From Paenibacillus silvisoli (GTDB taxonomy: Bacteria; Bacillota; Bacilli; Paenibacillales; Paenibacillaceae), in the NCBI RefSeq assembly GCF_030866765.1, contig NZ_CP133017.1, positions 1,703,001 to 1,767,000 of the forward strand: a stretch of 64,000 nt of DNA. Direction: 5' to 3'. Numbering within the stretch: position 1 is the stretch's first letter; each line of letters opens with the position of its first letter. The notes beneath the pieces were generated by a model. It ran no database searches. It had not been told where the DNA came from and saw nothing but the letters and a program-made list of their open reading frames with translations. The position numbers were made by a program, and so were the translations under genes. Below are positions 30,540 through 56,313 of the stretch, one piece after another.

Positions 30540-30554
30540 GTTACGATCTGTATC
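30540..30554. promoter_or_regulatory. EPS-regulon dyad, site 1
   Basis: GTTAC-gatct-GTATC. It lies between a TTGACT (30533-30538) and a TAAAGT (30556-30561) spaced 17 bases apart, so a protein bound here would block that promoter. Upstream, TACGAAATG occurs twice (30463 and 30492, 29 bp apart) within degenerate copies of the dyad. Confidence 0.65.
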
Positions 30555-30574
30555 GTAAAGTTAGTCTTGTGGAA

Positions 30575-30589
30575 GATACATTATGTATC
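30575..30589. promoter_or_regulatory. EPS-regulon dyad, site 2
   Basis: GATAC-attat-GTATC, a near-perfect palindrome 35 bp after site 1. A TATAAT at 30592-30597 follows directly. Confidence 0.65.
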
Positions 30590-30685
30590 AATATAATATG
30601 ATCATTACCCTAAAATGCTCCAGATATACCAGCCGGCATTCACTTCGCGTCAAATTCAATTTACAACTAACTGGAGGTCATTCGC

Positions 30686-31435
30686 TTGGAACTCAAAGAT
30701 TTGATGAAGATCATTCGCAAGAGGCTGCTTCTTATTTCGGTAATTGTAATTGCAGCATGCGCGTTAACTGGGGTTAAGACGTTTCTGTACACAGATCCGG
30801 TTTATCAAGCGACTGCGAAACTGATTGTTAGTCAATCCTTTGAAGTTGACGGTACAAGAACCATTGATTGGAATGTTATTCAATCCAATATCAAGCTCAT
30901 TAGCTCCTATAAAGAAATTATGAATTCCTCGGCGATCTTGAATAAAGTGATTGTTCAGTATCCGGAATTGCATGCAACGCCTGGTGAAATTAGCTCCGCC
31001 TTGCAAGTCAGCTCCGCGAGCGATTCTCAGGTCATGAATATCGAAGTAAAGAGTACTTCCGTTGAACGAGCAGTTAATATTGTTAATGCTGTTGCTACGG
31101 TGTTCAAAAATGAAATCCCGTCCATCATGAAAGTCGACAACGTCACCATTTTGACTGAAGCGAATGCAGATGCATCTGCTGCTCCGATTAATAAAAGTCC
31201 TATTTTCTACATCATCTTGAGTTTCATTGTATCGCTTATGCTGGCAATCGGCTTGGTCTTCTTACTCGATTACTTCGATGACACCATCAAGAGCGAAGAC
31301 GATGTGTTGAAGTCGCTTGATCTTCCGATGCTGTCGCATATTACTAGAATCAATAAATCGGAGTTTAGTCCCCGTAAATCGCGTTCATCCAAGACGAAAG
31401 CAGGTGAAGGCACTTATGTCACAGCAGGACAATAA
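30686..31435 (+). CDS. Wzz/CapA-like chain-length and kinase-modulator protein
   Basis: A 249-residue membrane protein that sets EPS chain length and activates the tyrosine kinase encoded next, as CapA/EpsA does. Transmembrane segments lie at about 15-33 and 172-194, with a Wzz-type extracellular domain between (YQATAKLIVSQS...). The cytoplasmic tail (about 195-249) ends in basic residues. The start is a TTG with GGAGGT upstream. It is the first gene of the EPS operon and overlaps the kinase gene by 20 bases. Confidence 0.9.
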   Translation: MELKDLMKIIRKRLLLISVIVIAACALTGVKTFLYTDPVYQATAKLIVSQSFEVDGTRTIDWNVIQSNIKLISSYKEIMNSSAILNKVIVQYPELHATPGEISSALQVSSASDSQVMNIEVKSTSVERAVNIVNAVATVFKNEIPSIMKVDNVTILTEANADASAAPINKSPIFYIILSFIVSLMLAIGLVFLLDYFDDTIKSEDDVLKSLDLPMLSHITRINKSEFSPRKSRSSKTKAGEGTYVTAGQ

Positions 31436-32102
31436 GCAGCGGCGTCATCTCATTACCGCTATTAATCCAAAGTCAATCGTTTCAGAGGCGTATCGCACGC
31501 TGCGGACGAATATTCAATTCTCGGCGATTGATCGGCAAATGAAAGTGCTTATGGTCGCTTCCGCTACTGTAGGAGAAGGGAAGACAACTACGGTTACGAA
31601 TCTTGCGGTGACCTATGCGCAAGAAGGAAAGAAAGTACTTCTCATTGACGCCGATTTACGAAATCCTTCCTTGCATCTTGTATTCCAACTAACAAACCGA
31701 ATTGGTTTAACGAGCGCATTTCTCCATCAACAATCGCTAACGGATGTGATTGGAGAAACGAATATAGACAATCTCTTCGTTCTCACCTCCGGACCTGTTC
31801 CGCCTAATTCTTCTGAAATATTAGGCTCGCAGCGTATGCAATTCCTTTTGGAAGAATTGAAGAACATGTACGATGTCATTCTCTTCGATACGCCGCCTGT
31901 GCTTCCGGTAGCTGATAGTCTCATTGTATCTTCCTACTGCGACGGAGTAGTCCTTGTCGTGCATGCAGGCAAAACGAAAAAAGAGATTGTTAAGAAAGCG
32001 AAAGCCAGCCTGGATCATGTGAAAGCCCGCATACTCGGTGTCGTTCTCAATAATAATGAGCGATCAAAGAATGAGGGCCGATATTACAACTATTACGGGT
32101 GA
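31416..32102 (+). CDS. Bacterial tyrosine kinase, CpsD/CapB/EpsB type
   Basis: A 228-residue BY-kinase. Walker A is in SATVGEGKTTTVTNLA (about 44-59), Walker A' in VLLIDADLRNPS (about 74-85), and Walker B in VILFDTPPVLPVADS (about 155-169). A Tyr cluster at the extreme C-terminus (YYNYYG) is the site of autophosphorylation in this family. With the Wzz-like partner it controls polymer length and export. No PHP-type phosphatase gene (YwqE/CapC) is seen nearby. The ATG at 31416 lies inside the end of the previous gene. Confidence 0.93.
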   Translation: MSQQDNKQRRHLITAINPKSIVSEAYRTLRTNIQFSAIDRQMKVLMVASATVGEGKTTTVTNLAVTYAQEGKKVLLIDADLRNPSLHLVFQLTNRIGLTSAFLHQQSLTDVIGETNIDNLFVLTSGPVPPNSSEILGSQRMQFLLEELKNMYDVILFDTPPVLPVADSLIVSSYCDGVVLVVHAGKTKKEIVKKAKASLDHVKARILGVVLNNNERSKNEGRYYNYYG

Positions 32103-32109
32103 AAATAAT

Positions 32110-32300
32110 AGAGCGCAGCAGGTAAACAGACCTTAGGTGATGTCTACTGAACCTTTATCACATGTAGGCACTCGATCATGCTGTGGGCTGGCTTTGCCAG
32201 CCTTAGACGTTCATCGTCAAGGGTGTGATGTGAGGCGGGGTTAAATGCCCTTTCTATCGCAGCCATGAACAGCTAAAAAAACGAGCTATGTTTTTTTAGG
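32110..32300 (+). ncRNA. Candidate EAR/epsC processive-antitermination RNA
   Basis: The 272-base untranslated gap between the kinase gene and galU is where the EAR element lies in the Bacillus eps operon (between epsB and epsC). Structure seen: hairpin GGCTGGC-TTT-GCCAGCC (32186-32202), hairpin GACG/CGTC (32206-32218), and outer pairing of ATGCTG near 32178 with CAGCCAT near 32263. A strong A/T hairpin CTAAAAAAAC/GTTTTTTTAG (32273-32299) follows. The call rests on position and fold. I cannot run a covariance search (Rfam epsC motif). Confidence 0.65.
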
Positions 32301-32328
32301 CGAAAGAAAGTATAGCTGGTTTTTTTAA
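32273..32328 (+). terminator. Terminator-like structure after the EAR candidate
   Basis: CTAAAAAAAC/GTTTTTTTAG forms one hairpin. Its loop GAGCTAT can alternatively pair with ATAGCT at 32312, directly before GGTTTTTTT. Two exclusive folds beside a T run would suit a readthrough switch. Confidence 0.45.
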
Positions 32329-32374
32329 CTGCAAGCATTTTGCTTCAGTAATTAGTTAATAGGGGTGAGTGGTG

Positions 32375-33265
32375 ATGAGTAAGGTTCGCAAAGCAATCAT
32401 TCCAGCCGCAGGTTTGGGAACGCGTTTCTTACCGGCTACGAAAGCTATGCCTAAGGAAATGCTTCCGATAGTCGACAAACCTACGATTCAGTACATCGTA
32501 GAAGAGGCCATTGCATCAGGGATCGAAGATATCATTATTGTTACCGGCAAGGGAAAACGCGCGATCGAGGATCACTTCGACATTGCTTTCGAGCTGGAAT
32601 CCAGTCTGCTAGAGAAGGGGAAAATGGAGCTGCTCGGAGAAGTGCGCAAGTCATCCCATGTAGATATTCACTACATCAGGCAGAAGGAGCCTAAAGGACT
32701 TGGTCATGCGGTGTGGTGTGCTCGCAAGTTTATAGGGAACGAGCCGTTCGCTGTCCTCTTGGGGGATGATATCGTGACTGCTGATGTGCCGTGTACCAAA
32801 CAACTTATTACGCAGTACGAGCATGTTCAACGATCCGTCATCGGCGTTCAAGCGATATCGATCGAGCAGACGGAGCGCTACGGCATTGTTGATCCATTAG
32901 AGGCAAGCGGCAAGCTATATTCCGTAAGTCGGTTCGTAGAAAAGCCGAAATTAGGCACAGCGCCATCCAATTTGGCTATTATGGGCCGATATATTCTAAC
33001 GCCCGACATATTTGATTATCTAGAGCTTCAAGAAGCTGGAGCAGGTGGAGAAATTCAACTGACGGACGCCATTCAGAAGTTGAATGAGGCTCAAGGCGTC
33101 TATGCCTACGACTTTGACGGTAAACGATATGACGTTGGCGAGAAGCTCGGTTTTATTACGACAATGCTTGATTTTGCGCTGCTCAACAAAGAACTGCGCC
33201 TTCCTCTATTAACGGTGCTTGAAGAGATGCTTGAAAATGAACGGTTAAAGAAACATAACTTGTAA
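32375..33265 (+). CDS. galU: UTP-glucose-1-phosphate uridylyltransferase
   Basis: A 296-residue enzyme making UDP-glucose from UTP and glucose 1-phosphate. The nucleotide-binding motif [21 protein letters not shown] is at about 8-28, LGDDIV at about 127, and EIQLTDAI at about 228. UDP-glucose feeds the priming transferase, the UDP-glucose dehydrogenase and glycolipid synthesis. The ATG at 32375 follows AGGGGTG. Confidence 0.94.
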
Positions 33266-33281
33266 GAATAGGAGAGAAAGA

Positions 33282-33980
33282 ATGAGTGTATCCACACAGA
33301 GAAACGATGGGGATGTCGTACTCAACACAAAACTTTCTACTTCAATCCATTCCAAGGAAAGATCAAGAAGCCTTGCCCACTACTTAATCGTTAAACGAGC
33401 GATAGATATTGTTTGCGCAGCAGTAGGATTAATTTGCTTAACTCCTTTGTTTATTATAGTGGCGATATTGATCAAAATTGAGGACCCTCGCGGTCCTGTT
33501 TTTTTTCACCAGATTCGAATTGGCAAGAATGAAAAGCCGTTTCGTATGTATAAGTTTCGATCCATGGTTTCCAATGCGGAAGAGCTGCTCGAGGAGTTAT
33601 TAATGCAGAACGAAATTCAAGGGGCCATGTTTAAAATGAAAAAGGACCCGCGAATAACAAGGATTGGTAAGTTCATCAGGAAAACGAGTATAGATGAGCT
33701 GCCGCAACTATGGAACGTGATTAAGGGGGATATGTCCATTGTTGGACCTAGACCACCGCTTCCACGCGAAGTAGCGGAGTATACGAGTCATGACAAATTA
33801 AGACTTAAAGTCATGCCAGGCTGCACGGGCTTATGGCAGATCAGCGGTAGAAATGGATTAAGCTTCGGAGAAATGGTTGAGCTGGATTTGATCTATATTG
33901 AGCAGCGATGCATGGCTGTTGATTTTAAGATTATGTTGAAGACGGTAAAAGTATTGCTTGGAACGAAAGATGCCTTTTAA
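33282..33980 (+). CDS. Priming undecaprenyl-phosphate sugar transferase (WbaP/EpsL-like)
   Basis: A 232-residue enzyme that moves a sugar phosphate from a UDP-sugar to undecaprenyl phosphate, starting each repeat unit. It has one membrane helix (about 38-62, RAIDIVCAAVGLICLTPLFI) and the transferase domain with the motif SIDELPQLWNVIKGDMSIVGPRPPLP (about 133-158). The C-terminal end reads YIEQRCMAVDFKIMLKTV. It is the short form that lacks the extra N-terminal helices of full-length WbaP. The sugar is probably glucose or galactose phosphate. Confidence 0.92.
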   Translation: MSVSTQRNDGDVVLNTKLSTSIHSKERSRSLAHYLIVKRAIDIVCAAVGLICLTPLFIIVAILIKIEDPRGPVFFHQIRIGKNEKPFRMYKFRSMVSNAEELLEELLMQNEIQGAMFKMKKDPRITRIGKFIRKTSIDELPQLWNVIKGDMSIVGPRPPLPREVAEYTSHDKLRLKVMPGCTGLWQISGRNGLSFGEMVELDLIYIEQRCMAVDFKIMLKTVKVLLGTKDAF

Positions 33981-34009
33981 GGTGATTATCATTTCGCAGA
34001 GGTGCAAAA

Positions 34010-34951
34010 ATGGATAAAGATTCTTGCATTTATATTGCTGGCCACAAAGGTTTGGTTGGTTCAGCGATTCTAAGGGAACTAGAGAGAAGAGGCTACGAGA
34101 ATCTCGTTTACCGCTCTAGTGCGGAATTAGATTTAAGGAAATTTGACCAGGTTCAGGACTTCTTCGCAAATAATCAGATTGATTACGTCTTTCTGGCTGC
34201 CGCTAAAGTAGGAGGGATAGTTGCGAATAATGAGTTTCCAGGGGACTTCATCCGCGATAATTTACTCATTCAAACGAATGTCATCGACGTTGCTTATCGC
34301 AGCGGCGTGAAGAAGCTTATGTTTCTGGGATCCACATGCATCTATCCTAAACTGGCGCCTCAGCCTTTGAAAGAAGAATATCTGCTAACCGGCGAGCTGG
34401 AGCCAACGAATCAACCATACGCCATTGCGAAAATTGCTGGCATCAACATGTGTCAGTCCTACAATCGGCAATATGGAACGAAGTTTATTTCCGTTATGCC
34501 TACGAATATGTACGGTCCCAATGACAACTTCGATTTAAAGACTTCTCATGTTCTTCCCGCGCTGATTCGGAAGTTTCATGAGGCTAAAGAAACGGGTGCG
34601 CAATATGTTGAGGTATGGGGAACCGGGCAGCCGAGACGCGAGTTCTTACATTCGGACGACCTTGCGGAAGCTTGCATCTTCTTAATGGAAAATTACGAGG
34701 ATAGCGAGATTGTTAATATCGGCGTGGGAGAAGATATATCCATCCGGGATCTCGCTGAATTAATCAAGAGCATCGTAGGCTATCAAGGCGAAATTAGCTT
34801 CGATTCATCTAAACCGGATGGAACGCCAAGGAAGCTGGTTGATGTTTCAAAGATTAACGGGCTGGGCTGGAAATCCAAGGTCTCCTTGGAAGACGGGATT
34901 CGTTCAGCTTACACGGCTTTCCAGCAAGAATATCTAGTGAATCGTTACTAA
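34010..34951 (+). CDS. fcl: GDP-L-fucose synthase
   Basis: A 313-residue short-chain dehydrogenase that epimerises and reduces GDP-4-keto-6-deoxymannose to GDP-L-fucose using NADPH. The cofactor loop is [17 protein letters not shown] (about 7-23), the catalytic Ser lies in GSTCIYP (about 107) and the Tyr-Lys pair in YAIAKIAG (about 135). AGAGGTG precedes the ATG. Gmd, which makes its substrate, is encoded next, so the EPS should contain fucose. Confidence 0.93.
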
Positions 34952-35971
<1,020 letters not shown>

Positions 35972-36053
35972 GGGCGGCCTGAGTAAATCGCGGCCGTTTG
36001 TGCAATGGACATATCGGCCAGCTGGAAATCTTGTTCTAAGGAGATCTAGAGAT

Positions 36054-37148
36054 ATGGCTGTGAAAAAGTATCTTTTTGTAACGCATGCTCTTTCATTCGG
36101 AGGAGCTGAGAGAGTTGTATCCGTATTAGCAAGCGGAATGGCAGAACGGGGATATGAGGTTCATTTAATCCTCTACGAAAAGGTCAATGGTGAGTATCCC
36201 ATCTCCGATAAAGTGAACATCCACCTTCTGCCTAAAATTGCTGGAAAGCACGGAATCAAGTATTTTGCCAAGATGCTTGCAGCTATGAGGCGGAAGATCG
36301 CTGAAGTCGCCCCCGATGTCATCATTCCTTTTCTGCCCAATCAAGTGATTCACTTCTTTATCGCTTCCAGGTTGATGAATATTCCGTTCGTTGCAACAGT
36401 TCGAAACAATCCGTTTCTATATCCGGATTCGAAGCCGAAAAGAACGATTGGAAAGATCGTTGCCTTATTGTCATCCGGCATATTTCTTCAAACGGAAGAA
36501 CAAGCCGGTTTCTTTCCGAGATTCGCCAAACGCAAAACGTTCGTCATCCCGAATCCGGTAAGCAGCGACTTAATCGATCGCAACTATCGGAATCGCGATC
36601 ATATTCGTGAAATAGCCACATTCGGGAGGCTAAGCACCCAGAAGAACCAGCATCTGCTGATTGAGGCTTTTGCAATCGTGCATAAAACGAATCCATCTTT
36701 GAGATTGAGCCTTTATGGAGCAGGAGAAGAAGAGCAAAACTTGAAGGCACTCGTCGCTAAACTGGGCGTAAAGGATGCTGTAACGTTTAGAGGAAGCGTA
36801 TCTAATGTTGGTGAGGCGCTGTTGTCTACGGATTTGTTTGTTTTATCGTCCAACTATGAAGGGATGCCCAATGCATTAATGGAAGCTATGGCAGTCGGGC
36901 TGCCTTGTATTTCGACAGATTGTCCAACCGGCCCGAAGGATTTAATTGACCATATGAACGACGGTATATTGGTCAAAAGCAATAATGTCAGTGAGTTAGT
37001 TTCTGCGATTCATTACTGCGTCGCGAATCCCGTATTTTGCCATCAAGCAGGAAGCGCGGCAAAGAAAAAGATCAGGGATGCATATCAAGTGGATGTCATC
37101 ATCGATAAGTTTATTCATGAAATAAACGGGGTAAAAGGGTGTTCTTAA
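36054..37148 (+). CDS. Glycosyltransferase, GT4 family
   Basis: A 364-residue retaining glycosyltransferase with two Rossmann domains. The N-terminal domain has FVTHALSFGGAERVVSVLA (acceptor side). The C-terminal domain has IATFGRLSTQKNQHLLIEAF and the donor site LSSNYEGMPNALMEAMAVGLPCIST. It would add one sugar of the EPS repeat unit at the inner membrane face; linkage and sugar are unknown. The ATG at 36054 follows AAGGAG; the open frame before it is untranslated. Confidence 0.9.
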   Translation: MAVKKYLFVTHALSFGGAERVVSVLASGMAERGYEVHLILYEKVNGEYPISDKVNIHLLPKIAGKHGIKYFAKMLAAMRRKIAEVAPDVIIPFLPNQVIHFFIASRLMNIPFVATVRNNPFLYPDSKPKRTIGKIVALLSSGIFLQTEEQAGFFPRFAKRKTFVIPNPVSSDLIDRNYRNRDHIREIATFGRLSTQKNQHLLIEAFAIVHKTNPSLRLSLYGAGEEEQNLKALVAKLGVKDAVTFRGSVSNVGEALLSTDLFVLSSNYEGMPNALMEAMAVGLPCISTDCPTGPKDLIDHMNDGILVKSNNVSELVSAIHYCVANPVFCHQAGSAAKKKIRDAYQVDVIIDKFIHEINGVKGCS

Positions 37149-37149
37149 T

Positions 37150-38442
37150 ATGCAGCATAACGAGACGAGTATGAATTTGAAAGGAATTCTATTTACCGGC
37201 ATTGTTGTACTCATGTTGATTGGTATAACCTTTCCAGGACTTACGGGGTCATGGACTAGAAATGACGCATGGATGGCATATTCGTACGTCTTTCATTATT
37301 CAACGCTCACAACATTATGCTCATATATGGCGACCTGCTTGATTTATCTGCTGCTGATTGTTTGCATCTGGAGCAATCACCCAAAGGGGAAGGCGCTATT
37401 ATTTATCTATTTAAGCACGCTTGTTTTTGTTGTATGGGCTTTATTTACAATTTACGAAGCGAGCGTTCAATCCATGCTTCTTGACGATGTATCGATCAAT
37501 ATGATTCTGGTCCCGCTTTTCTTTTTACTTGGTTATGAGAAGAGTATTTTTGAAAGCGCCAGGAGAATGCTGCCTTACATCCTCATCATCATGTGCGGGT
37601 TGATTGTATGGAGCAGTATTTCTTTTATTTGGAAATATGGTGTATCTACGGAAACAATTAACTCCCCAAGCAAAGAAATGTTTGCTGTTGCAATAAGCGC
37701 ATATTGGTGTTATGCGCTGGGGACGCCTGACAGCAGTCGTTTCCATAGAACCTTTAAATATGTGCTTGGTATTTGTTTGTTAATTTGTGCGTTTCTGATT
37801 CGTTCCAGAAGCTGGGTTATTCAATGCCTATTACTTCTATATGCGATGTCCAGCTATGGCTCTGGAAAAAAGGCTAAAATTCGGAAGGTACTTGCGGTTT
37901 TCGCTGTCGTACTCGTGTTTGTCCTCATTGTTTATATGCTGCCTAATGTAACAGGGGCTCTATTTAACCGCGGGAATGAAGATACGAGATCCGGGCAGTA
38001 TGAAACGTTTTTCTCGCAAGTTGAGCCAGCCAGTTTACTATGGGGGCAAGGATTTAATGCCAGCTACAGCTATATAGGAAATGAAAACTATAGATACTTT
38101 GATAACCAATATATCTACATGATGTTTCATTATGGAGCGCTTCCCGTTCTTTGTTTGTTTGGCGTGATCAGCGGTTTATTTAGAAAAATAAATAAGGATC
38201 TTCTTTCCGCGGAAGATAGAGCCTATATTATCGGTTGCCGGATGATGAGCCTCTTCTACTTGGCGGCATTAGGCGGGTTGTCCGTATATTTCAAATTCGG
38301 ATGGAATCTAAGCACATTATTGGTATTTGTCTTTATTGGGCGAGGGCTTGAAATGATGAGCGAATCAAGGAAGCTCCAAAATCATCGTGATCTGCAGCTT
38401 GTCAAGCCGCCAGTGGCAATTCTTACTCATGTGAAGGGATGA
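37150..38442 (+). CDS. EPS polymerase candidate (Wzy/O-antigen polymerase-like)
   Basis: A 430-residue integral membrane protein with about ten hydrophobic segments and a long outside loop (about 265-330, NRGNEDTRSGQYETFF...WGQGFNASYSYIG). This loop resembles the Wzy_C-like region of O-antigen ligases and polymerases. It is the only many-helix protein besides Wzx in the cluster, so it is the best candidate for polymerising repeat units outside the membrane. It starts one base after the preceding stop. The coding sequence is clearly more A+T-rich than genes outside the cluster. Confidence 0.8.
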   Translation: MQHNETSMNLKGILFTGIVVLMLIGITFPGLTGSWTRNDAWMAYSYVFHYSTLTTLCSYMATCLIYLLLIVCIWSNHPKGKALLFIYLSTLVFVVWALFTIYEASVQSMLLDDVSINMILVPLFFLLGYEKSIFESARRMLPYILIIMCGLIVWSSISFIWKYGVSTETINSPSKEMFAVAISAYWCYALGTPDSSRFHRTFKYVLGICLLICAFLIRSRSWVIQCLLLLYAMSSYGSGKKAKIRKVLAVFAVVLVFVLIVYMLPNVTGALFNRGNEDTRSGQYETFFSQVEPASLLWGQGFNASYSYIGNENYRYFDNQYIYMMFHYGALPVLCLFGVISGLFRKINKDLLSAEDRAYIIGCRMMSLFYLAALGGLSVYFKFGWNLSTLLVFVFIGRGLEMMSESRKLQNHRDLQLVKPPVAILTHVKG

Positions 38443-38446
38443 TCAA

Positions 38447-39010
38447 ATGCGCTTTTCCGAATTAGTGTCCGTTATCAAGGAAGATTTTGCGAATTACAAA
38501 CGAGTTGAAAATCGGGGATTCATAGTCGGGCTGCTCTTCTCTCCAGGTTTTAAATACATCTTCTTCATGCGCTTATGTACGTACTTCCGTCATAAGAAAC
38601 CGGCAGTGTTATTCCTTCCCATTTTCCTTGTTCTCGTATTCATTTACAGGCACAACTCGTTCAAATACGGCATTGAGGTTCCGTTTAAGGCAAAGATAGG
38701 ACCAGGCTTCTACATCGGTCATTTCAGCTGCATCACTATGCACGGTGAAGCAGTTCTGGGGGATCGGGTCCGAATCAGTCAAGGCGTTACCATCGGCTAT
38801 ACGTCGAAAGGAGTGCCGACAATCGGCAACGACGTATATATTGGCGCTGGAGCCAAGATTATCGGTAATGTGCATGTAGGCAATAACGTTGAGATTGGCG
38901 CAAACAGCGTTGTGACGAAAGATATTCCTGATAACTCCGTTGTCGTTGGTGTCCCGGGCAGAGTGATACGGACGAAAGCTTTTGCCGTAAACTCTTTGAC
39001 TAACGCATAA
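38447..39010 (+). CDS. Hexapeptide-repeat acetyltransferase (CysE-like fold)
   Basis: A 187-residue left-handed beta-helix acyltransferase. The hexapeptide repeats run from about 85 to 170 (VRISQGVTIGYTSKGVPTIGNDVYIGAGAKIIGNVHVGNNVEIGANSVV) and hold HFSCITMHGEAVLGD with the likely catalytic His. It resembles serine acetyltransferases in fold. In this setting it most likely acetylates a sugar of the EPS. It lies five bases after the polymerase gene. Confidence 0.87.
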   Translation: MRFSELVSVIKEDFANYKRVENRGFIVGLLFSPGFKYIFFMRLCTYFRHKKPAVLFLPIFLVLVFIYRHNSFKYGIEVPFKAKIGPGFYIGHFSCITMHGEAVLGDRVRISQGVTIGYTSKGVPTIGNDVYIGAGAKIIGNVHVGNNVEIGANSVVTKDIPDNSVVVGVPGRVIRTKAFAVNSLTNA

Positions 39011-39041
39011 AATAACAGGCTCATTTATTGGAGGAACTTTA

Positions 39042-40205
39042 ATGAAGAAGAGAGTTTTTCTTCATGGACTTTGTAATTATCCTCGCGGTTCAGCTAAGGC
39101 TAATTATATGCAATATTTATCCATGGCGTTGAAAGAGGCGGGTTATGATGTCTACCTGCATTCCAACTTAAATGATGAATTTCAGCTCCAGGAGCAAGAA
39201 GGCGTGATGGTCTACAATGGTGTTAAGATCATTCCATTCAACATGTATAAGAATAAAATTACAAACTACATAGAGCGTCGATTTTTGAGAGGGCATAACG
39301 TCGTCAATATGCTGAAGCAGCACAATATTACAAGAGAAGATATTGTCGTGCTAATTTCTCCAGATGTACGCGTTCATCACGAGGTATTGAATTACAAAAA
39401 GAAAATTGGATTCAAGACCGTCAGCTGCCCTTTAGAGTGGTTCCCTAGCAGCCAATTCAAGTCGAGACGCGAATGGAAGGAGAACAGCGCTTATTTCGAT
39501 CGTTTTCTGCATCGGCATGACTTGCTCTTTCCCATCTCGACGTATATCGAAAACCATTTGATGAAGAAGAACTGCAATACGATGTGCTTGCCGATTATGG
39601 CCGATGTACGCGAGCATGCGGTGGGAACGAAGTCATTCGATAAAATCAAATTCATATTTCCGGGGAACGGGATGATGAAGGATGCCATTGAAGTTATTCT
39701 AAAGAGCTTTAGCCGGCTCGCTTCTGATGATAAGAGGCGGGTGGAATTACATCTATGCGGCGTTAAAGAGGAGCAAATCAAAGCCATATTGACCTCGCAA
39801 GAATATGAGAGTCTCAAAGATGTACTCGTCATCCATAAATGGATGAACTACAAAGAGCTAGTATCGCTATATCAGGCTATGCATTTCTTAATGCTGGCAA
39901 GAGAAGAGAACCAAATGACGCTGGCCAACTTCCCAAGTAAAGTTCCTGAAGTCATGTGCTACGGTGTAATACCGATTGTTTCCCGCGTGGGGGATTATAC
40001 CAAATACTATCTGGAGGACAACGTGAACAGCTTGATTTTTGACGGCTGCGATATCGATTTGTGCTTGAAAAAAATCAATCAAGCGTTGTCGATGACGCAA
40101 AGAGAGATTGCAGCTTTATCGGTCAGGTCAAGGGAATGTGCCGAAAAAAAATTCGATTATCGAAATTGGGTTGGTAAGATTCATCATGCTCTTGAAAGCT
40201 TATAA
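39042..40205 (+). CDS. Glycosyltransferase family 1/4-like
   Basis: A 387-residue glycosyltransferase. The N-terminus (VFLHGLCNYPRGSAKANYMQYLSMAL) is typical of the acceptor domain. The C-terminal domain includes KFIFPGNGMMKDAIEVILKSF and a donor region (SKVPEVMCYGVIPIVSRVGD) in place of the usual E-x7-E motif. It probably adds a sugar to the repeat unit; specificity is unknown. The gene is followed by a hairpin with a T run at 40218, inside the operon. Confidence 0.83.
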   Translation: MKKRVFLHGLCNYPRGSAKANYMQYLSMALKEAGYDVYLHSNLNDEFQLQEQEGVMVYNGVKIIPFNMYKNKITNYIERRFLRGHNVVNMLKQHNITREDIVVLISPDVRVHHEVLNYKKKIGFKTVSCPLEWFPSSQFKSRREWKENSAYFDRFLHRHDLLFPISTYIENHLMKKNCNTMCLPIMADVREHAVGTKSFDKIKFIFPGNGMMKDAIEVILKSFSRLASDDKRRVELHLCGVKEEQIKAILTSQEYESLKDVLVIHKWMNYKELVSLYQAMHFLMLAREENQMTLANFPSKVPEVMCYGVIPIVSRVGDYTKYYLEDNVNSLIFDGCDIDLCLKKINQALSMTQREIAALSVRSRECAEKKFDYRNWVGKIHHALESL

Positions 40206-40217
40206 CGATTATGAAAG

Positions 40218-40250
40218 AACTCGTCTTCATGGAAGGACGGGTTTTTTATT
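40218..40250 (+). terminator. Internal terminator-like hairpin in the EPS operon
   Basis: AACTCGTC/GACGGGTT (one G-U pair), ten-base loop, then TTTTATTTT. It lies between two EPS genes, so RNA polymerase must read through it to express the distal half. This fits an upstream antitermination element. Confidence 0.7.
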
Positions 40251-40266
40251 TTGGAGGTCAAATGAT

Positions 40267-41181: not shown

Positions 41182-41211
41182 CATAGCCCGAATCATGAAG
41201 GAAGTGTGAGA

Positions 41212-43345: not shown

Positions 43346-43366
43346 AGCTTGCCAAGGGGGTTCAAC

Positions 43367-45749: not shown

Positions 45750-45756
45750 TCCATGT

Positions 45757-45791
45757 AAGGGGGCGGCTTCCAAAAGCTGCCCCCTTATTTT
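45757..45791 (+). terminator. Second internal terminator-like hairpin
   Basis: AAGGGGGCGGCTT/AAGCTGCCCCCTT (13 pairs, one G-U), loop CCAA, then ATTTTG. The T tract is short, so it may only attenuate. It lies between the epimerase and manC genes. Confidence 0.65.
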
Positions 45792-45830
45792 GCAATGAAA
45801 GCCGCTTAGTAGAGAAACGGAGGAGTAGAG

Positions 45831-47204: not shown

Positions 47205-47238
47205 AGCAACGAAAAATAGGCGATTGGAGTATTCGAAC

Positions 47239-48201
47239 ATGAAGCGTCCAACGAAGCGATTTCTGGTGTGGACAGTTGCAAGAACCGCAGTCATTCTCAT
47301 GTTGCTGGCGTGCGGAGTGATTTGGTTTCTCTATCATTCCGTCTCGCAGACGGCTGCCGAAATGTATGAAGAGGTTGCGTCGACGAGCCCGGTCTATATG
47401 AGTAAGGATATAGAAGTAAAGGTGGCCAAGGAGCAGGTTCAAATGAATAGTCTTGCCCCATTTACAGTTCTCGTTCTAGGCGTAGACCAACGGGAGCATG
47501 ATCGGGGGCGTTCCGATACGATGATCGTACTGTCCGTTAATCCAGCCAAACAGTCCATACTGATGTTCAACATTCCTCGTGATACGCGAACCGATATTAT
47601 TGGACACGGGACGGTTGACAAAATTAATCATGCCTATGCGTTTGGCGGTGTGGAGATGTCGATTCGGACAGTTGAGCACTTCCTGGATTACCCCATTAAT
47701 TATTACGTCAAAGTAAATATGGAAAGCTTTGCGCAGTTGATCGATTTGATAGGCGGTGTCGAGGTGAACAATCCATTTGCTTTCGATTATGAGGGTCACA
47801 AGTTCGAACAAGGCCGCTTGGTACTTAACGGCACTGATGCGCTGAAGTTTGCGCGTATGCGCTACGATGATCCCCGGGGTGATTTAGGCCGCAACTCAAG
47901 ACAGCATGACATTTTGAAGGAAATCATGAAAAAGTCGACGAGCATTTCGAACGTGACTCGTCTGCATTCGCTGTTAGGCGAGCTCGGAGACTGCGTGAAG
48001 ACGAATCTTACTTTTGACGACATGAAGCAGCTCGCGACGGATTACCGGCCTCAACTTCATAAGATCGATACAATCGAGATACAAGGAAAAGGCAAAATGA
48101 TTGACCGAATTTGGTATTACATCGTTGATAATAGCGAACGAATCCGCATTCACAATCTGCTCAAAGAGCATGTCCAGAAGGTACCCGCAAATGCGCGATA
48201 G
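47239..48201 (+). CDS. LytR-CpsA-Psr (LCP) family ligase
   Basis: A 320-residue membrane-anchored enzyme with one helix at about 10-30 and an outside LCP domain: VLVLGVDQREHDRGRSDTMIVLSVNP (about 77-102), FNIPRDTRTDI, KINHAYAFGG, and FARMRYDDPRGDLGRNSRQHDIL. LCP proteins move lipid-linked glycans onto peptidoglycan, so part of this polymer may be wall-attached. The conserved Arg and Asp residues are present. The ATG at 47239 is preferred to a TTG 15 bases upstream. Confidence 0.92.
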   Translation: MKRPTKRFLVWTVARTAVILMLLACGVIWFLYHSVSQTAAEMYEEVASTSPVYMSKDIEVKVAKEQVQMNSLAPFTVLVLGVDQREHDRGRSDTMIVLSVNPAKQSILMFNIPRDTRTDIIGHGTVDKINHAYAFGGVEMSIRTVEHFLDYPINYYVKVNMESFAQLIDLIGGVEVNNPFAFDYEGHKFEQGRLVLNGTDALKFARMRYDDPRGDLGRNSRQHDILKEIMKKSTSISNVTRLHSLLGELGDCVKTNLTFDDMKQLATDYRPQLHKIDTIEIQGKGKMIDRIWYYIVDNSERIRIHNLLKEHVQKVPANAR

Positions 48202-48709
48202 CATTAGAAAACCTATGATTATAGTCACTGTCATAGCCTGGATTTCGATCATCTTTATGCTATCGTCCCAATCGTATCAGGAACAGAGCATTCAACCGAC
48301 ATTGCATCGATTATTGCCGGAGCATATAGCGAAAGCAATGCTGCCCGATGTAGCCTTCAGTTATCATGGCATCTACTATTCCTCAAAGAACAATCCGTAC
48401 CAATTCATTGAATTTCTGTTCCGAAAAGGAGCCCATTTGTTCATGTATGCCATTCTTGCCGTGGCAGGAGCGCTAGCGATAAAAGTGAAGGACAAACTCG
48501 CCAGAAGATGGCCGCTGCCTCTTATCCTTGTCGTCATGATCGCTGCGCTTGATGAATTGAACCAGCGAATCACCGAAGGCCGAACCTCGAATGCGCAGGA
48601 TGTTCTTGTGGATTTAACGGGCGGGTGCATCGGCTTGCTCGTTTATTTGGCGGTCTCCTATGTCTATCGAAGGCATAAAGCATCGCGCTCCGTTCATCAA
48701 ATGAAGTAG
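48191..48709 (+). CDS. VanZ family membrane protein
   Basis: A 172-residue protein with four hydrophobic helices and the VanZ pattern (KPMIIVTVIAWISIIFMLSSQS, RKGAHLFMYAILA, DELNQRITEGRTSNAQDVLVDLTGG). VanZ proteins are linked to low-level teicoplanin resistance, but their activity is unknown; they recur in EPS clusters. The ATG at 48191 overlaps the LCP stop, with AGAAGG upstream. A small CGTAAC/GTTACG hairpin follows at 48714. Confidence 0.85.
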   Translation: MRDSIRKPMIIVTVIAWISIIFMLSSQSYQEQSIQPTLHRLLPEHIAKAMLPDVAFSYHGIYYSSKNNPYQFIEFLFRKGAHLFMYAILAVAGALAIKVKDKLARRWPLPLILVVMIAALDELNQRITEGRTSNAQDVLVDLTGGCIGLLVYLAVSYVYRRHKASRSVHQMK

Positions 48710-48766
48710 CCTGCGTAACCTTGTTACGATTGAGAGAATTCTGGTTTTTTTATATGGAGGGACACT

Positions 48767-50617
48767 GTGAATAAGCGAAGTTTAATACTGCTCCTCTGCC
48801 TGGCCGTACTGCTGGCGTTTATATGGAGCGTAGGGGGACCGGGCAATTACGAGCGGGTAAGTGGGGCTGTCGGAACTATTACGATCCAATTGCCTGAATC
48901 TCAGGAAGCTTTCAATAATCCGATCATGGGCTTTAGGCCTTCCCGCAACGTAAACGATACTTCTTTCCAGAGACGGGAATATGCGGATATTTATAAACAT
49001 TATATCAAGTACACCGACCTGGAGGTACACGCAACGGACAGCGTTCAGAAGATCAAGGACTGGAGCAATAAGGCTTGGGCGGGCATCGAGAAGAAAAATA
49101 TAAAGGTCGTTCCGCGCGTCGTCATCGATCAACCAGGCGCTGGGGAGTTTTGGCCAAGCGGGGTTCCGAATGGCGATTGGTTGTCCGACGCCTTGAAAGA
49201 ACGGCTTGTTGCATTTATAGGAAAGCTTGGACAAGCCTGGGATAATGATCCGCGGGTTGCTTTTGTAGAGCTTGGGTTGTATGGGAAATGGGGAGAGCAT
49301 CATATTCATCCCGATGAATTCGACGATCGGACGCAACGCATTCCGCTCAGTTTTCAAACGGCGTTAGGCGACGCGTATACTTCAGCGTTTAAGAATAAGA
49401 AAGTGCTCGTGCGCTATCCGGAGACATTCACCGATTACGATTTCGGTTATTACTGGGATTCCTTCGCGCTGCCGAATGATGCATTCAGCGGGAATGGAGT
49501 AATTTCACGAAATACGTGGAGCACGCAGATCAACAGCGGTGAAGTCGCCTATAATTGGGGCAATCAATCCAATCTGGGCGGCAGTCCGAATGGAACGCTC
49601 AGCAACGCCTCGAACACAAACTATGTCATTGACTGGATTATGAACACCCACACCTCGAGCTTAGGTTGGATTTCCGACTATACAGCAAGAAATGCTGCCG
49701 TTCAAGCCGGGGCGACGGCCATACAGAAGGTGCTTGGTTATCGCTTCGTGCTGAATCAGGCAACGTTTACGGGCTATGTGTCTCCCGGCGGGACGATGAA
49801 AGTAGCGTTCCAAGTGACGAACAAAGGTTCGTCGCCTTTTTATTATAACTGGCCGGTTGAGGCGAGTTTGCTGAAGAGCGATGGAACGGTTGCTTGGCAG
49901 GGCTTGTTCCAAAATGACATTCGAAAATGGCTTCCTGGGACGGATTGGAACAAGACGACTCGCGCATACAATCAAGATCCGGCTGTCAACTTCGTTTGCG
50001 GCATGTTTACGATTCCTAAGTCGGTACCGAACGGAACCTATACGCTGGCGCTGTCCATTCTGGATCCGGCCGGCTATAAGCCAAGCCTCCGGTTCGCTAA
50101 TACCAACTATTATACCGGGGGCAGGACACCGATCGGTAAAGTAGGCATCGGCCAGAATCCCGCAGATCAAGATCTCGGCTCGTTCGCAAGCTTGAAATCG
50201 GATTCGACGCTCAGTTATAGCCTGCAAAGCAGCACGTACAACGGCTCTGTCGGAAGTAGAATCAGTTCCGTAATCGTAGATGACACAGCGCTTAGTTTCG
50301 AAGCAAATCCAATCATCTTGAACGGAAATGTCATGGTTCCTTTCCGTCCGATTTTTGAGTCCTTGGCTATGAATGTGAATTGGGATAACTCGACGAAATC
50401 GGTAAATGCGTACAAAGATGACTTAACCATTAAGATGACAGACGGCAGCCTTAAAGCTCTTGTGAATAACAACGAGTTTAAATTGAACCAATCCCCATTT
50501 GTTACAGAAAGCAAAAGCATGTTTTATGTGAATCTGAGATTTATTGGTGAAGCTACCGGAGCTACGGTGATCTGGGATAACCTAAATAAGGTAGCGACGA
50601 TTACTACCAAGAAATAA
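48767..50617 (+). CDS. Secreted DUF4832 protein with copper-amine-oxidase-like stalk domain
   Basis: A 616-residue exported protein. A signal or anchor helix (1-22) is followed by a TIM-barrel-like domain (about 40-330, NNPIMGFRPSRN, VVPRVVIDQPG, FVELGLYGKWGEHH, VLVRYPETF). A DUF4832 beta domain follows (about 330-480), then a C-terminal copper amine oxidase N-terminal-like stalk (about 500-616, MVPFRPIFESLAMNVNWD, FYVNLRFIGEATGATVIWDN). The barrel resembles glycoside hydrolases, so it may trim or release the EPS; acid residues at strand ends fit but are not proven. GTG start, GGAGGG upstream. It is the last gene of the EPS operon. Confidence 0.87.
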   Translation: MNKRSLILLLCLAVLLAFIWSVGGPGNYERVSGAVGTITIQLPESQEAFNNPIMGFRPSRNVNDTSFQRREYADIYKHYIKYTDLEVHATDSVQKIKDWSNKAWAGIEKKNIKVVPRVVIDQPGAGEFWPSGVPNGDWLSDALKERLVAFIGKLGQAWDNDPRVAFVELGLYGKWGEHHIHPDEFDDRTQRIPLSFQTALGDAYTSAFKNKKVLVRYPETFTDYDFGYYWDSFALPNDAFSGNGVISRNTWSTQINSGEVAYNWGNQSNLGGSPNGTLSNASNTNYVIDWIMNTHTSSLGWISDYTARNAAVQAGATAIQKVLGYRFVLNQATFTGYVSPGGTMKVAFQVTNKGSSPFYYNWPVEASLLKSDGTVAWQGLFQNDIRKWLPGTDWNKTTRAYNQDPAVNFVCGMFTIPKSVPNGTYTLALSILDPAGYKPSLRFANTNYYTGGRTPIGKVGIGQNPADQDLGSFASLKSDSTLSYSLQSSTYNGSVGSRISSVIVDDTALSFEANPIILNGNVMVPFRPIFESLAMNVNWDNSTKSVNAYKDDLTIKMTDGSLKALVNNNEFKLNQSPFVTESKSMFYVNLRFIGEATGATVIWDNLNKVATITTKK

Positions 50618-50644: not shown

Positions 50645-50665
50645 TATGATACAATATGTATCATA
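50645..50665. promoter_or_regulatory. EPS-regulon dyad, site 3
   Basis: A nine-base perfect inverted repeat around ATA containing GATAC-aatat-GTATC (50648-50662). Its right arm forms a TATCAT -10-like box in the same place as at 53092. The -35 position is poor, so promoter activity is less sure. It lies 25 bases before the glycosyltransferase start. Confidence 0.65.
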
Positions 50666-53052: not shown

Positions 53053-53069
53053 ATGAACCGTTCTTTTTT

Positions 53070-53097
53070 TTGATCAACTAGATACAAAACGTATCAT
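53070..53097 (+). promoter_or_regulatory. Promoter with EPS-regulon dyad, site 4
   Basis: TTGATC (53070-53075), 16 bases, TATCAT (53092-53097). The dyad GATAC-aaaac-GTATC (53081-53095) starts 11 bases after the -35 start and covers the front of the -10. The layout equals that at 55620. Confidence 0.7.
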
Positions 53098-53145
53098 AAG
53101 TGGAACGTTTTTTGGCGAGCGCTGGATGAGAGGATGGATAGCGAG

Positions 53146-54480
53146 GTGAGAATCGCCGTAATTGGAACAGGCTTCGCAGGTCTTGTAGCTGGCGTAAGCT
53201 TCGCGGAGCTCGATCATGAAGTGATTTACGCGGATACGGATCTCGAGAAGATTAAGAGGCTGGCGCGAGGCGAAATTCAGATCTACGAGCCGGGTTTGCG
53301 AGAATTGATTCTGCGGAATGCAGAGGCCGGCAGACTGTCTTTTACATCGAATATCACGGAAGCTACGAGGCTGTCCGAGGTTGTCATTTTAGCGCCAGAT
53401 TCGTCGCCGCTTTCGAAAGGCGAACCTAATTTTGCCGAATTAGCGGCGGCGGCGAGAGAAGTCGCCTATTCGATGAATAATCGCAAAACGATCATCACAA
53501 AATGCTCCGTGCCTCCCGGAACGAACGAAAGGCTGAAGCGGCTGATGGCCGAGCTCACGGACCAGAGCTTTGCTATCGTGTCTGTGCCGGCCTTTCTAAG
53601 AGAAGGCACGGCAATCAAAGATGCTTTCAATCCGGACCGGATCGTAATCGGATCCGATGATTCGACCGCTGCGCAAACCGCTGCCGAGCTGCATCGGCCC
53701 TTATCGGACAAGATGGTCATAACCGACTTGCGTACCGCCGAGATCATGAATTACGTAGCAAATGCTTTCCTTGCGACGAAAAAGGCCTTCATGCAGGAAA
53801 TGGCAAGCCTTTGCGCAAAAGTTGGCGCCGACGCGGAGAAAGTCGCATTAGGAGTGGGCTATGATCACCGGATCGGGCATTCGTTCCTTGCCGAGGGCAT
53901 CGGCGACAACGGCTTTGGTTTCCTGAAGGATGCGGAGACTCTCATTCAGCTTGCTTGCAGTGTTGAGCACGAAGTCAAGCTCCTTGAGTCGGTCGTAGCT
54001 ATAAACCGGGTTCAGCGGTTTGCTATCATTCATAAGCTTGAAGAGCTGCTCGGGGACTTGAGAGGGTTAAACATCGCCGTTTGGGGAGCAGCAATCAGGC
54101 CGAATACAAATGAAGTACGCGATTCACAGGCTATCCCGATCATTCGGGAGTTAGTGAAGAAAGGAGCAACGGTCAAGATCAGCGATCCGTTAGCCCTGCC
54201 TAATCTTCGCAAATTAGTGGATGCCGATTCGATCATTTGGTGCGTGGACGGACTGGAAGCGGCATGCGATGCGGACGCGATCTGTTTGTTGACCGAGTGG
54301 GAGGAATACGGCCGGTATCAGATGAAGCACTTGCGTCGAGTCATGAAGCAGCCGGTGCTCGTTGACGCCCGGAGCATGTTTAGAGAAGAGCAGCTATTGG
54401 ACAGCGGATTTATATACAGCTCGATCGGCAGTCATTCCATGAATACCTCCTTATCGCCGGTTAAACGACCTATTGCATAG
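53146..54480 (+). CDS. UDP-glucose dehydrogenase-like protein lacking the catalytic cysteine
   Basis: A 444-residue paralogue of the dehydrogenase at 43367. The N-terminal Rossmann fold (IAVIGTGFAGLVAGVSFAE), EIMNYVANAFLATKKAFMQEMASL and the C-terminal domain are kept. The active-site motif GYGGSCFPKDT is replaced by GDNGFGFLKDA, with Cys changed to Gly. The usual STVPVGT reads CSVPPGT and SNPEFL reads SVPAFL. Oxidation of UDP-glucose to the acid should not be possible by the known mechanism. It may bind a nucleotide sugar as a sensor or partner. The start is ambiguous: the GTG at 53146 follows GAGAGGATGG; an ATG at 53134 lies inside that box. Confidence 0.85.
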   Translation: MRIAVIGTGFAGLVAGVSFAELDHEVIYADTDLEKIKRLARGEIQIYEPGLRELILRNAEAGRLSFTSNITEATRLSEVVILAPDSSPLSKGEPNFAELAAAAREVAYSMNNRKTIITKCSVPPGTNERLKRLMAELTDQSFAIVSVPAFLREGTAIKDAFNPDRIVIGSDDSTAAQTAAELHRPLSDKMVITDLRTAEIMNYVANAFLATKKAFMQEMASLCAKVGADAEKVALGVGYDHRIGHSFLAEGIGDNGFGFLKDAETLIQLACSVEHEVKLLESVVAINRVQRFAIIHKLEELLGDLRGLNIAVWGAAIRPNTNEVRDSQAIPIIRELVKKGATVKISDPLALPNLRKLVDADSIIWCVDGLEAACDADAICLLTEWEEYGRYQMKHLRRVMKQPVLVDARSMFREEQLLDSGFIYSSIGSHSMNTSLSPVKRPIA

Positions 54481-55040: not shown

Positions 55041-55114
55041 CGAATTCGCACAATATAGGACAATACAAATTATAACTGCAAATGACCGATGCTCCGCTGG
55101 AGGTGAGCTAGCAG

Positions 55115-55612
55115 ATGAGCAACATCGTCTATTTGAAGCCGAAGCGGACGGGCCCGATCGTGCTGTACCGGGCGACGGACGGGACGCTAATGGCCGAGAA
55201 GGAAGGGCAGGCGTTTGAGCGAGTGAAGCTGGTCCGCGCGTTCCCGAATTCATTTCCGGACCGGTTCATCTCCGTCCGAACCGAGTTCGGCGAAGAAATT
55301 TATCTCCTTCACGATCTCACGGTTCTCGATGAAAGCAGCCAGTATACGGCGAAGGAAGAGCTGCGCAGATACTACATGGTGCCGACTATTCAGCGGATCA
55401 CGTCCATTCGCAAGCTGACGTCGGAATGGAGCTGGCAGGTCGATACCGACTTTGGCCGGGTGACGATCATGATGGATAATTTGCACGAAAATATCCACGA
55501 AATCGGTGCCGGCAGGTGGATTATTACGGATACCGAAGGCCGACGCTACATGCTGTCGAACGTGGAACGGATGGATGCGGAAAGCCGGCGCTGGTGGAAG
55601 AAAGTGAATTAA
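55115..55612 (+). CDS. DUF1854-like protein
   Basis: A 165-residue soluble protein whose second half (ITSIRKLTSEWSWQVDTDFGRVTIMM, GAGRWIITDTEGRRYMLSNVERMDAESRRWWKK) fits DUF1854. That domain is of unknown role and in other bacteria is found beside ABC exporters. GGAGGTGAG precedes the ATG. A degenerate dyad (AATAC-aaatt-ATAAC) lies at 55062-55076. Confidence 0.75.
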   Translation: MSNIVYLKPKRTGPIVLYRATDGTLMAEKEGQAFERVKLVRAFPNSFPDRFISVRTEFGEEIYLLHDLTVLDESSQYTAKEELRRYYMVPTIQRITSIRKLTSEWSWQVDTDFGRVTIMMDNLHENIHEIGAGRWIITDTEGRRYMLSNVERMDAESRRWWKKVN

Positions 55613-55619
55613 TTTTTTT

Positions 55620-55647
55620 TTGACTACCTTGTTACAGATTGTAACAT
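55620..55647 (+). promoter_or_regulatory. Promoter with EPS-regulon dyad, site 5
   Basis: TTGACT (55620-55625), 16 bases, TAACAT (55642-55647). The dyad GTTAC-agatt-GTAAC (55631-55645) starts 11 bases after the -35 start, exactly as at 53070. It drives the PilZ gene. Confidence 0.72.
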
Positions 55648-55671
55648 TACCCAGAAACGAGGCGCAGCGAC

Positions 55672-56133
55672 ATGAGCGGTGAGTGGAAGGAGCGAGGGCA
55701 TATCCGCATACGGCTTCGGGACGGCGTAGGAGCGGAGATGTCCATTTGTCAAGTTCAAGGCGAGCCGGGGGAACCGGAGGAAATGTCCAAATCATCGCCG
55801 ATTCTGCTGCAAAATATGAGTCCGGGAGGCTTGCAATTTCTCAGCCATCTCCGGCTGCCGGTCAGCGACGGATACATGCTGCAATTCTCCATTACGCTTG
55901 GAGAGTGGCAGTTCGGTCTTCTGGGGCATGTCGTTTGGAGACGGAAAGAGGATAATCATTACATCTATGGCTGCGAGCTGCTTCCGGACGACAGCATTCG
56001 CAAGAGCATCGTATGCGCGCTGCTTGCCAAGCTTCAAACGATGAGCCCGAAGCAGCAGCGGATTCATGAGCTGTACCGGCGCATGACGTACAGGAAAGAA
56101 ACAAGCTATGCACGCCTCGACGTCCGAGGGTGA
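55672..56133 (+). CDS. PilZ-domain protein (c-di-GMP receptor candidate)
   Basis: A 153-residue protein. RGHIRIRL near the N-terminus resembles the arginine motif. It is followed by SPILLQNMSPGGLQFLS (about 40-56, the N-x-S-x-x-G motif) and a beta-barrel ending LGHVVWRRKEDNHYIYGCEL (about 82-101). PilZ domains bind cyclic di-GMP and commonly control EPS production and motility. Its own promoter carries the dyad found at the EPS genes. It is monocistronic and followed by a strong terminator. Confidence 0.83.
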   Translation: MSGEWKERGHIRIRLRDGVGAEMSICQVQGEPGEPEEMSKSSPILLQNMSPGGLQFLSHLRLPVSDGYMLQFSITLGEWQFGLLGHVVWRRKEDNHYIYGCELLPDDSIRKSIVCALLAKLQTMSPKQQRIHELYRRMTYRKETSYARLDVRG

Positions 56134-56148
56134 GTAAGATAACGGGGA

Positions 56149-56197
56149 ACCGGGTAATGAGGGATATGTGCCTCATTACCCGGTCTTATTTTTTTTG
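56149..56197 (+). terminator. Terminator after the PilZ gene
   Basis: ACCGGGTAATGAGG/CCTCATTACCCGGT with an eight-base loop, then CTTATTTTTTTT. Confidence 0.92.
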
Positions 56198-56263
56198 TCC
56201 ACAATTGTAAACGCATACACGACAAAATGCGTACTCGTTCGCATTTTTCCGGCTTATTCTGTA

Positions 56264-56313
56264 TTGACAGCTAGCGAGATTTGTCATATTCTAAACTTGA
56301 TACGAAACGTAAC
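56264..56313 (+). promoter_or_regulatory. Promoter with EPS-regulon dyad, site 6
   Basis: TTGACA (56264-56269), 17 bases, TATTCT (56287-56292). The dyad GATAC-gaaac-GTAAC (56299-56313) covers the expected transcription start. A leader of about 85 bases precedes the small Cys-rich gene. Confidence 0.72.

Follow-up and report, generated by a model that had tools for sequence, protein, structure and literature searches.

The described repressor–operator systems closest to the locus considered here are those of phages and phage-like elements. The operator consensus of PBSX Xre from Bacillus subtilis is printed as GATACATTTTGTATC, a GATAC-N5-GTATC dyad, in the excerpt of PMC4243335, and cng and cpg of Lactobacillus phage phig1e are described, in the excerpt of PMC10848424, as repressors with known operators. 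Here, a 64,000-nucleotide stretch of the Paenibacillus silvisoli genome (6.73 Mb, one contig), hereafter the window (G000:C1:1703001-1767000), was analyzed for six dyads of this class, which lie at and beyond an exopolysaccharide (EPS) gene block adjoined by the gene for a small XRE-family protein, XRE-A (Table 1). An earlier note on this DNA had held that the dyad matches no regulator site known from Bacillus; that statement is not supported, because the PBSX Xre consensus has been published. With a probability of roughly 0.73, we consider the six dyads to be operators of XRE-A, which would act as a chromosomal repressor controlling EPS, PilZ, glycosyltransferase, and matrix genes. The same dyads are probably also operators of a paralog, XRE-B.

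The window was scanned with the looser pattern GWTACNNNNNGTAWC, and dinucleotide shuffles served as the background. The six dyads reported in the earlier note were all recovered, and they were the sole exact matches in the window, whereas the shuffles gave a mean of 0.14 and a maximum of 2. Genome-wide, the looser pattern gave 19 matches versus 11 for a reversed control pattern, and the strict pattern GWTACRNNNYGTAWC, in which the spacer ends are R...Y, gave 13 versus 1; this spacer rule is a refinement that was defined after the sites had been seen. According to simple gene calls, 11 of the 13 strict sites are intergenic, one lies within a gene (441598), and one is ambiguous because a doubtful small open reading frame (ORF) overlaps it (3618569). 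Among the six sites outside the strict set, three are intragenic (L024 twice, L025), and the other three lie 5' of a Spo0E-like gene, 5' of a GGDEF gene, and beside a strict box upstream of a Calx-beta protein gene. Equal abundance inside genes, which the earlier note had named as a finding that would refute its proposal, was therefore not seen for the strict sites, which are mainly intergenic. These results indicate that the six dyads exceed chance expectation, and they are conserved in relatives, as described below. The dyad also bears a likeness to the actinobacterial BldD box.

XRE-A is divergent from the EPS promoter, downstream of which lie the Wzz-like gene and the rest of the EPS block. 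In this promoter, the box (30540-30554) starts one nucleotide after the TTGACT hexamer (30533-30538) and is followed by TAAAGT at 30556. The geometry described earlier for the promoters at 53070 and 55620, with the dyad overlapping the -10 region, and at 56264, with the dyad at the expected start point, was confirmed by inspection of the sequence. The placement of the dyads is repressor-like, as had been proposed; repressors usually act in the promoter spacer or at the transcription start. Promoter placement is frequent in relatives as well. Of the 120 sites in XRE-A gaps, 49 had a TTGAC/T hexamer ending 1 nt ahead of the box and 52 had one ending 0-3 nt ahead of it, whereas 96 of 4000 random 15-mers in the same gaps satisfied the 0-3 nt rule.

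Conservation was examined in a collection of named genomes, which gave 185 relatives of XRE-A. The analysis used the best 80; these loci come from Paenibacillus, Cohnella, Thermobacillus, one Paenibacillaceae bacterium, and one record titled Bacillus sp., and some of the genomes are shared with the 147-genome set used below. Of the 80 named loci, 69 had at least one full box in the 400 bp upstream of XRE-A, and 51 had two, with spacings of 35 bp (34 loci), 37 bp (six), 34 bp (five), 36 bp (three), and 31, 39, and 100 bp (one each). The reversed control motif did not occur in the XRE-A gaps of these loci. Seven of the 11 loci lacking a full box had a box with one mismatch; as background, 26 of 320 same-length windows elsewhere in the loci contained a full or one-mismatch box, a count that includes genuine boxes on the EPS side. 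A gene of EPS type (PilZ, LCP, Wzz, BY-kinase, GalU, CpsB, or UDP-glucose dehydrogenase, recognized by similarity to eight query proteins) lay within 3 kb on the operator side of XRE-A in 67 of the 80 loci, and in several relatives that were read, XRE-A sits between gltB-like and EPS-side genes.

The number of sites followed the presence of XRE-A. Across 147 family genomes, an XRE-A match at E<=1e-20 was found in 100, eight of which (G053, G076, G095, G098, G111, G122, G130, and G145) were of low similarity and were treated as non-orthologs by score. The 92 genomes with an ortholog had a mean of 11.67 strict sites (control motif, 3.13), whereas the 55 without one had 4.18 (control, 2.33; p=2e-14 in a rank test that ignores relatedness). 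With the unfiltered definition, the mean numbers of sites and control matches were 11.3 and 3.2 for genomes with both XRE-A and XRE-B (71 genomes), 10.8 and 2.8 with XRE-A only (29), 12 and 2 with XRE-B only (one), and 3.8 and 2.3 with neither (46). Within genus g17, the corresponding numbers were 9.8 and 3.2 in the six genomes with XRE-A and 4.4 and 2.4 in the seven without it. For the low-similarity hits, a full box beside the gene was found in none of the six loci fetched (all but G098 and G145), and G076 had a near box.

The boxes match the operators of PBSX, phig1e, and Listeria phage A500, and the predicted DNA-reading head of XRE-A is like those of the corresponding repressors. XRE-A combines an HTH_3 domain with a helix of the type SR(A/G)xxSHxE, which is not sufficient by itself (see Emery below), and the GATAC-N5-GTATC boxes beside its gene are paired approximately 34-37 bp apart. 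Carriage by a phage or prophage, another feature of the PBSX Xre class, was not found for XRE-A: a search of viral contigs reaching close relatives only gave no match, and EPS-type genes adjoin it in 67 of the 80 named loci. In the seven phage regions that were read, the repressor gaps of phig1e, R3.3, and A500 carried full boxes, each gap with a pair 34 bp apart, and the helices were SRARYSHLE, SRAAYSHFE, and SRGAYSHIE, respectively. No full box was found in the repressor gaps of Emery, A403, and EG-TP1, and Hayley had a single one-mismatch match far from the repressor. Scanning of viral contigs with PBSX Xre as the query gave 63 repressor loci, which are not independent tests because they are mostly close relatives; 52 had a box within 450 bp upstream (control motif, 0), and the helix of all 52 fits (S/T)R(A/S)xx(S/A)HYE. 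The remaining 11 had neither helix nor box. Residues R28, S32, H33, Y34, and E35 were invariant in 50 aligned proteins, and the helix was present in all 80 named XRE-A relatives. In the genome itself, two of the 11 XRE homologs found carried the helix, and among their fetched flanks only those of these two carried a box. The link between recognition helix and operator is strong but imperfect.

In a tree of 77 helix-turn-helix (HTH) domains, which is poorly resolved, built from 70 columns, and unsettled in its bootstrap values, a branch (88/95) separated XRE-A and XRE-B from the phage repressors. XRE-B formed one group (98/84) nested among the XRE-A-like proteins, which formed no group of their own. 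No XRE-A relative was found in viral contigs by a search reaching close relatives only. Both observations would fit a domestication long ago, for which the tree gives neither date nor root. Neither XRE-A (68.5 bits) nor XRE-B (70.9 bits) reached the cut-off of 80 bits for the RstR phage repressor model NF041951 of NCBIfam.

The XRE-B gene (3955298) lies outside the window, and a match to it at E<=1e-20 was found in 72 of the 147 family genomes. All 30 loci fetched from these 72 genomes carried a full box upstream of XRE-B, roughly 45-200 bp from the matched start, and in 27 of the 30 promoters a TTGAC/T hexamer ended 2 nt before the box. The recognition helices are ITRSAYSHYE in XRE-B and ISRAALSHYE in XRE-A. 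As a separate observation, G077 has, beside EPS-like genes, a third gene for a small XRE protein, whose helix is of the SHYE type and which has two boxes upstream (L153:3575-3661, 3812-4027).

A small ORF ending at 30003 lies between the gltB-like gene and XRE-A. A profile of its motif, ELDIrkILeQLGIdpekW, matched beside XRE-A in 71 of the 80 named loci, with 69 matches convergent and six on the same strand; this count is partly circular because the model was seeded from the same loci, by a pattern matching 42 of the 80. The pN/pS values of 0.26-0.65 (15 pairs, six sequences) indicate a real protein. It has no match in Pfam, it also occurs beside two low-similarity XRE genes (G095, G111), and the model found none near the viral repressors at 63 loci. 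In some genomes (L048, L063, L044, L157), two matches to the model were seen beside XRE-A. The small protein is a candidate partner or antagonist of XRE-A. In hhalign, its segment ELDIrkILeQLGI aligned to the similar stretch VREFVDQLEL in the C-terminal domain of XRE-A, with a profile match that was not significant (P=0.14). A function comparable to that of SinI is thus a tentative lead.

These features suggest how the system may work. A dimer of XRE-A would bind the GATAC-N5-GTATC boxes within or just downstream of promoters and would block RNA polymerase, so that the EPS, PilZ, glycosyltransferase, and matrix-protein genes would remain silent as long as XRE-A stays bound; its release might be brought about by the adjoining small protein or by some signal. 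XRE-B, whose own promoter carries a box, would be repressed by XRE-A, by XRE-B, or by both. We infer from the sequence comparisons that XRE-A, and likewise XRE-B, binds as a dimer and represses rather than activates. A more tentative possibility is that a phage lysogeny switch has become a bistable biofilm switch in Paenibacillaceae. XRE-A would be its repressor, XRE-B a paralog sharing the operator, and the small protein an antagonist; phage components would then have given rise, independently, to a circuit resembling SinR/SlrR/SinI.

Several observations weigh against XRE-A as the repressor acting at these sites, and part of them bear on a different division of labor, in which XRE-B would be the main regulator at the EPS sites and XRE-A would control its own gap only or modulate. 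XRE-B shares its helix type and operator with XRE-A and could therefore be the main repressor; its box was present in all 30 fetched loci, and G046, the one genome of 147 with XRE-B and no XRE-A match at E<=1e-20, still has 12 sites, three of them in an EPS-like block. This arrangement is nevertheless rather unlikely, as the 29 of 147 genomes with XRE-A and no XRE-B match keep a mean of 10.8 sites (control, 2.8), and adjacency to EPS-type genes within 3 kb belongs to XRE-A (67 of 80 named loci). G111 has 14 sites with a low-similarity homolog only, several XRE-A bearers have few sites, and in genus g5 the bearers are barely enriched (8.6 sites, control 5.4, in 10 genomes; 4.0 and 2.2 in the five without XRE-A). 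Four of the 80 named XRE-A loci lack a box, their best candidates having 3-4 mismatches, and some strict sites are intragenic (441598 in this genome; in G038, within a gltB-like ORF). Five low-similarity Paenibacillaceae XRE genes have the helix without an adjoining full box, with a near box in one of them (G076). Moreover, the repressor of Brevibacillus phage Emery (L271) has the helix SRARYSHYE, yet its gap carries GATAG-N5-CTATC dyads and no GATAC box; therefore, residues outside the helix stretch also matter for operator choice, and the Emery dyads are possibly a sister code with one base per half-site changed. A rule equating the SHYE helix with the GATAC box was found inexact, given Emery on one side and the boxes of phig1e, R3.3, and A500 with SHLE, SHFE, and SHIE on the other.

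A -35-like hexamer lies 0-3 nt from the box in just three of 19 sites in the genome itself and seven of 43 PilZ-locus sites, and many boxes are therefore not placed in this way. The lack of an adjoining hexamer at most PilZ-locus sites, together with the position of some sites 60-260 bp ahead of the matched gene start, where no promoter was obvious, would suit activator sites through which XRE-A or XRE-B turns the EPS genes on. We regard activation as improbable, since the EPS and XRE-B boxes fall in the -35/-10 spacer or on the start point and the nearest relatives of known role are phage repressors. The operator class is that of temperate phages, and the sites might accordingly be leftovers or targets of a resident prophage without any host regulon; this explanation is very improbable, in view of the lack of XRE-A relatives in viral contigs in the close-relative search, the gltB-like and EPS-side neighbors in several relatives, and the separation of XRE-A and XRE-B from the phage repressors on the HTH tree (88/95 over just 70 columns). 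Control by XRE-A as repressor thus remains the reading we prefer.

Further boxes point to candidate targets beyond the window. A pair (5789753, 5789782) precedes the gene of a Calx-beta protein whose start resembles a signal peptide, a box at 4711444 precedes that of an Hcp-family protein whose start is likewise signal-peptide-like, and one at 207527 precedes a DUF5658 membrane protein. The Calx-beta boxes (L026:3254-3297 = G000:C1:5789753-5789796) are 29 bp apart and stand beside TTGACT, so this may be a matrix protein of the regulon. The looser boxes 5' of the Spo0E-like gene (L016:2213-2227) and of the GGDEF gene, which has a seven-transmembrane domain (L020:2214-2228), both lack the R...Y spacer ends; they could place sporulation timing and cyclic di-GMP under the same regulator. 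The PilZ gene was found in all 22 genus genomes, 19 of which have a full box within the fetched flanks; the others are G001, G020, and G077, in the last of which PilZ lies approximately 2 kb downstream of tandem boxes. The PilZ motif pattern matched 17 of the 22 loci, two of which (L146, L147) look like other frames. In another genus, G141 carries 12 strict (13 looser) boxes over approximately 46 kb of EPS-like genes. In G056 (L150:3077-7743), a peptide-like ORF, a PqqD-like protein, and a transporter-like gene lie inside an EPS block with boxes on both sides, possibly forming a cluster for a ribosomally synthesized and post-translationally modified peptide.

An operator common to the EPS operon, the glycosyltransferase pair, PilZ, and other genes, with the divergent XRE protein as its candidate regulator, had been proposed in the earlier note, and both proposals are supported. 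Loss of the sites in relatives, which it had named as a refutation, was not observed; they are kept together with XRE-A, XRE-B, and PilZ. Its second candidate, the small Cys-rich protein, has no Pfam or NCBIfam match at E<=1e-3, was rejected as a regulator as no domain was found, and resembles a target. For the link to cyclic di-GMP, the basis consists of the PilZ genes and of a single looser site, which lies upstream of a GGDEF gene beyond the window. Overall, the earlier interpretation is partly supported.

Two neighboring proteins of the window were also noted. The UDP-glucose dehydrogenase paralog (53134-54480) has GDNGFGFLKD in place of the GGSCFPKD of active paralogs; the Cys is retained in the copies read in G056, G137, and G046, which points to a local loss. 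A DUF1854 protein (55115-55612) adjoins PilZ, as does a similar ORF in G056, and scores 91.5 bits with the NCBIfam model of a cyanophycin-associated protein, below the cut-off of 150. In the EPS block, Wzz was named by Pfam and the remaining genes from inspection of the translations.

Table 1. Positions of the operators, promoter, and genes in window coordinates
Feature	Position	Strand	Basis
Conserved small protein encoded convergently to XRE-A, with ELDVRxILEQLGIDxxKW as C-terminal motif; start uncertain (29779 or 29851)	29779..30003	+	Profile match, pN/pS
XRE-A, 122 aa, candidate PBSX-Xre-type repressor, recognition helix ISRAALSHYEKN	30059..30427	-	Pfam HTH_3 E=1.4e-16; helix, site adjacency, relatives
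EPS promoter TTGACT-N17-TAAAGT, operator O1 in spacer	30533..30561	+	Sequence; layout repeated in named relatives
Operator O1 GTTACGATCTGTATC	30540..30554	.	Pattern scan; relatives
Operator O2 GATACATTATGTATC, 35 bp downstream of O1, close to expected start point	30575..30589	.	Pattern scan; relatives
EPS gene block: Wzz-like, BY-kinase, GalU, glycosyltransferases, UDP-glucose dehydrogenase, LCP-like, VanZ-like, others	30686..50617	+	ORFs
Operator preceding glycosyltransferase pair (50690-53052)	50648..50662	.	Pattern scan
Operator overlapping putative TTGATC promoter, before UDP-glucose dehydrogenase paralog	53081..53095	.	Pattern scan, sequence
UDP-glucose dehydrogenase paralog without catalytic Cys motif	53134..54480	+	Pfam, motif
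Operator before PilZ; TTGACT 5 nt upstream	55631..55645	.	Pattern scan; G056 box at same position
PilZ protein, RxxxR and NxSxxG motifs	55672..56133	+	Pfam PilZ 24.7 bits, cut-off 22.5; motif
Operator at expected start point of Cys-rich small protein gene	56299..56313	.	Pattern scan; G056 box at same position
Small Cys-rich protein, likely target	56387..56644	+	ORF; by-eye similar ORFs at same position in G056, G077, G097

A search of mainly open literature, mostly at title level, gave no regulator of this type for Paenibacillus EPS clusters. The operator and the repressor head are known from phages; what appears to be new is their use as an EPS regulon throughout the family, along with the paralog pair and the small partner. 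The comparisons suggest that Paenibacillus and its relatives now control the production of their surface matrix by a switch borrowed from phages. If so, one small protein and a 15-bp code would predict a large part of the regulon of EPS, PilZ, and matrix genes in Paenibacillus and Cohnella, Thermobacillus being less clear; loss of one repressor gene might increase EPS output in producers of industrial interest; and the system would be a clear case of a phage repressor–operator pair co-opted for a host surface trait.

Like the SinR/SinI/SlrR biofilm switch of Bacillus subtilis, the system places a small candidate XRE repressor beside EPS genes, has an XRE paralog that shares the operator, and includes an adjacent small protein, which may antagonize the repressor. 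The SinR operator differs from GATAC-N5-GTATC. SinR as the regulator was rejected: no SinI/SinR dimerization domain (PF08671) is among the Pfam matches of XRE-A at E<=1e-3, and the domain is present elsewhere in the genome, where a separate SinR/SinI-like pair lies at 932 kb.

PBSX Xre shares with XRE-A the SHYE helix (SRARYSHYE) and the operator, as printed in the excerpt of PMC4243335, and viral contigs encoding PBSX Xre carry three boxes ahead of its gene, including a pair spaced by 35 bp. In contrast, PBSX Xre controls a defective prophage and has no small partner by the model at the 63 viral loci, and in PBSX-like prophages the box and the -35-like hexamer have 1 nt in common (36 of 130 sites), whereas the XRE-A hexamer ends 1 nt before the box. 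For phig1e Cpg/Cng and A500 gp33, the repressor gene is also divergent, with three full GATAC boxes per gap, one pair of them 34 bp apart and one box beside TTGAC. Their helices read SHLE or SHIE where XRE-A has SHYE, and phage genes lie on both sides of these repressors, whereas the host system has EPS genes instead.

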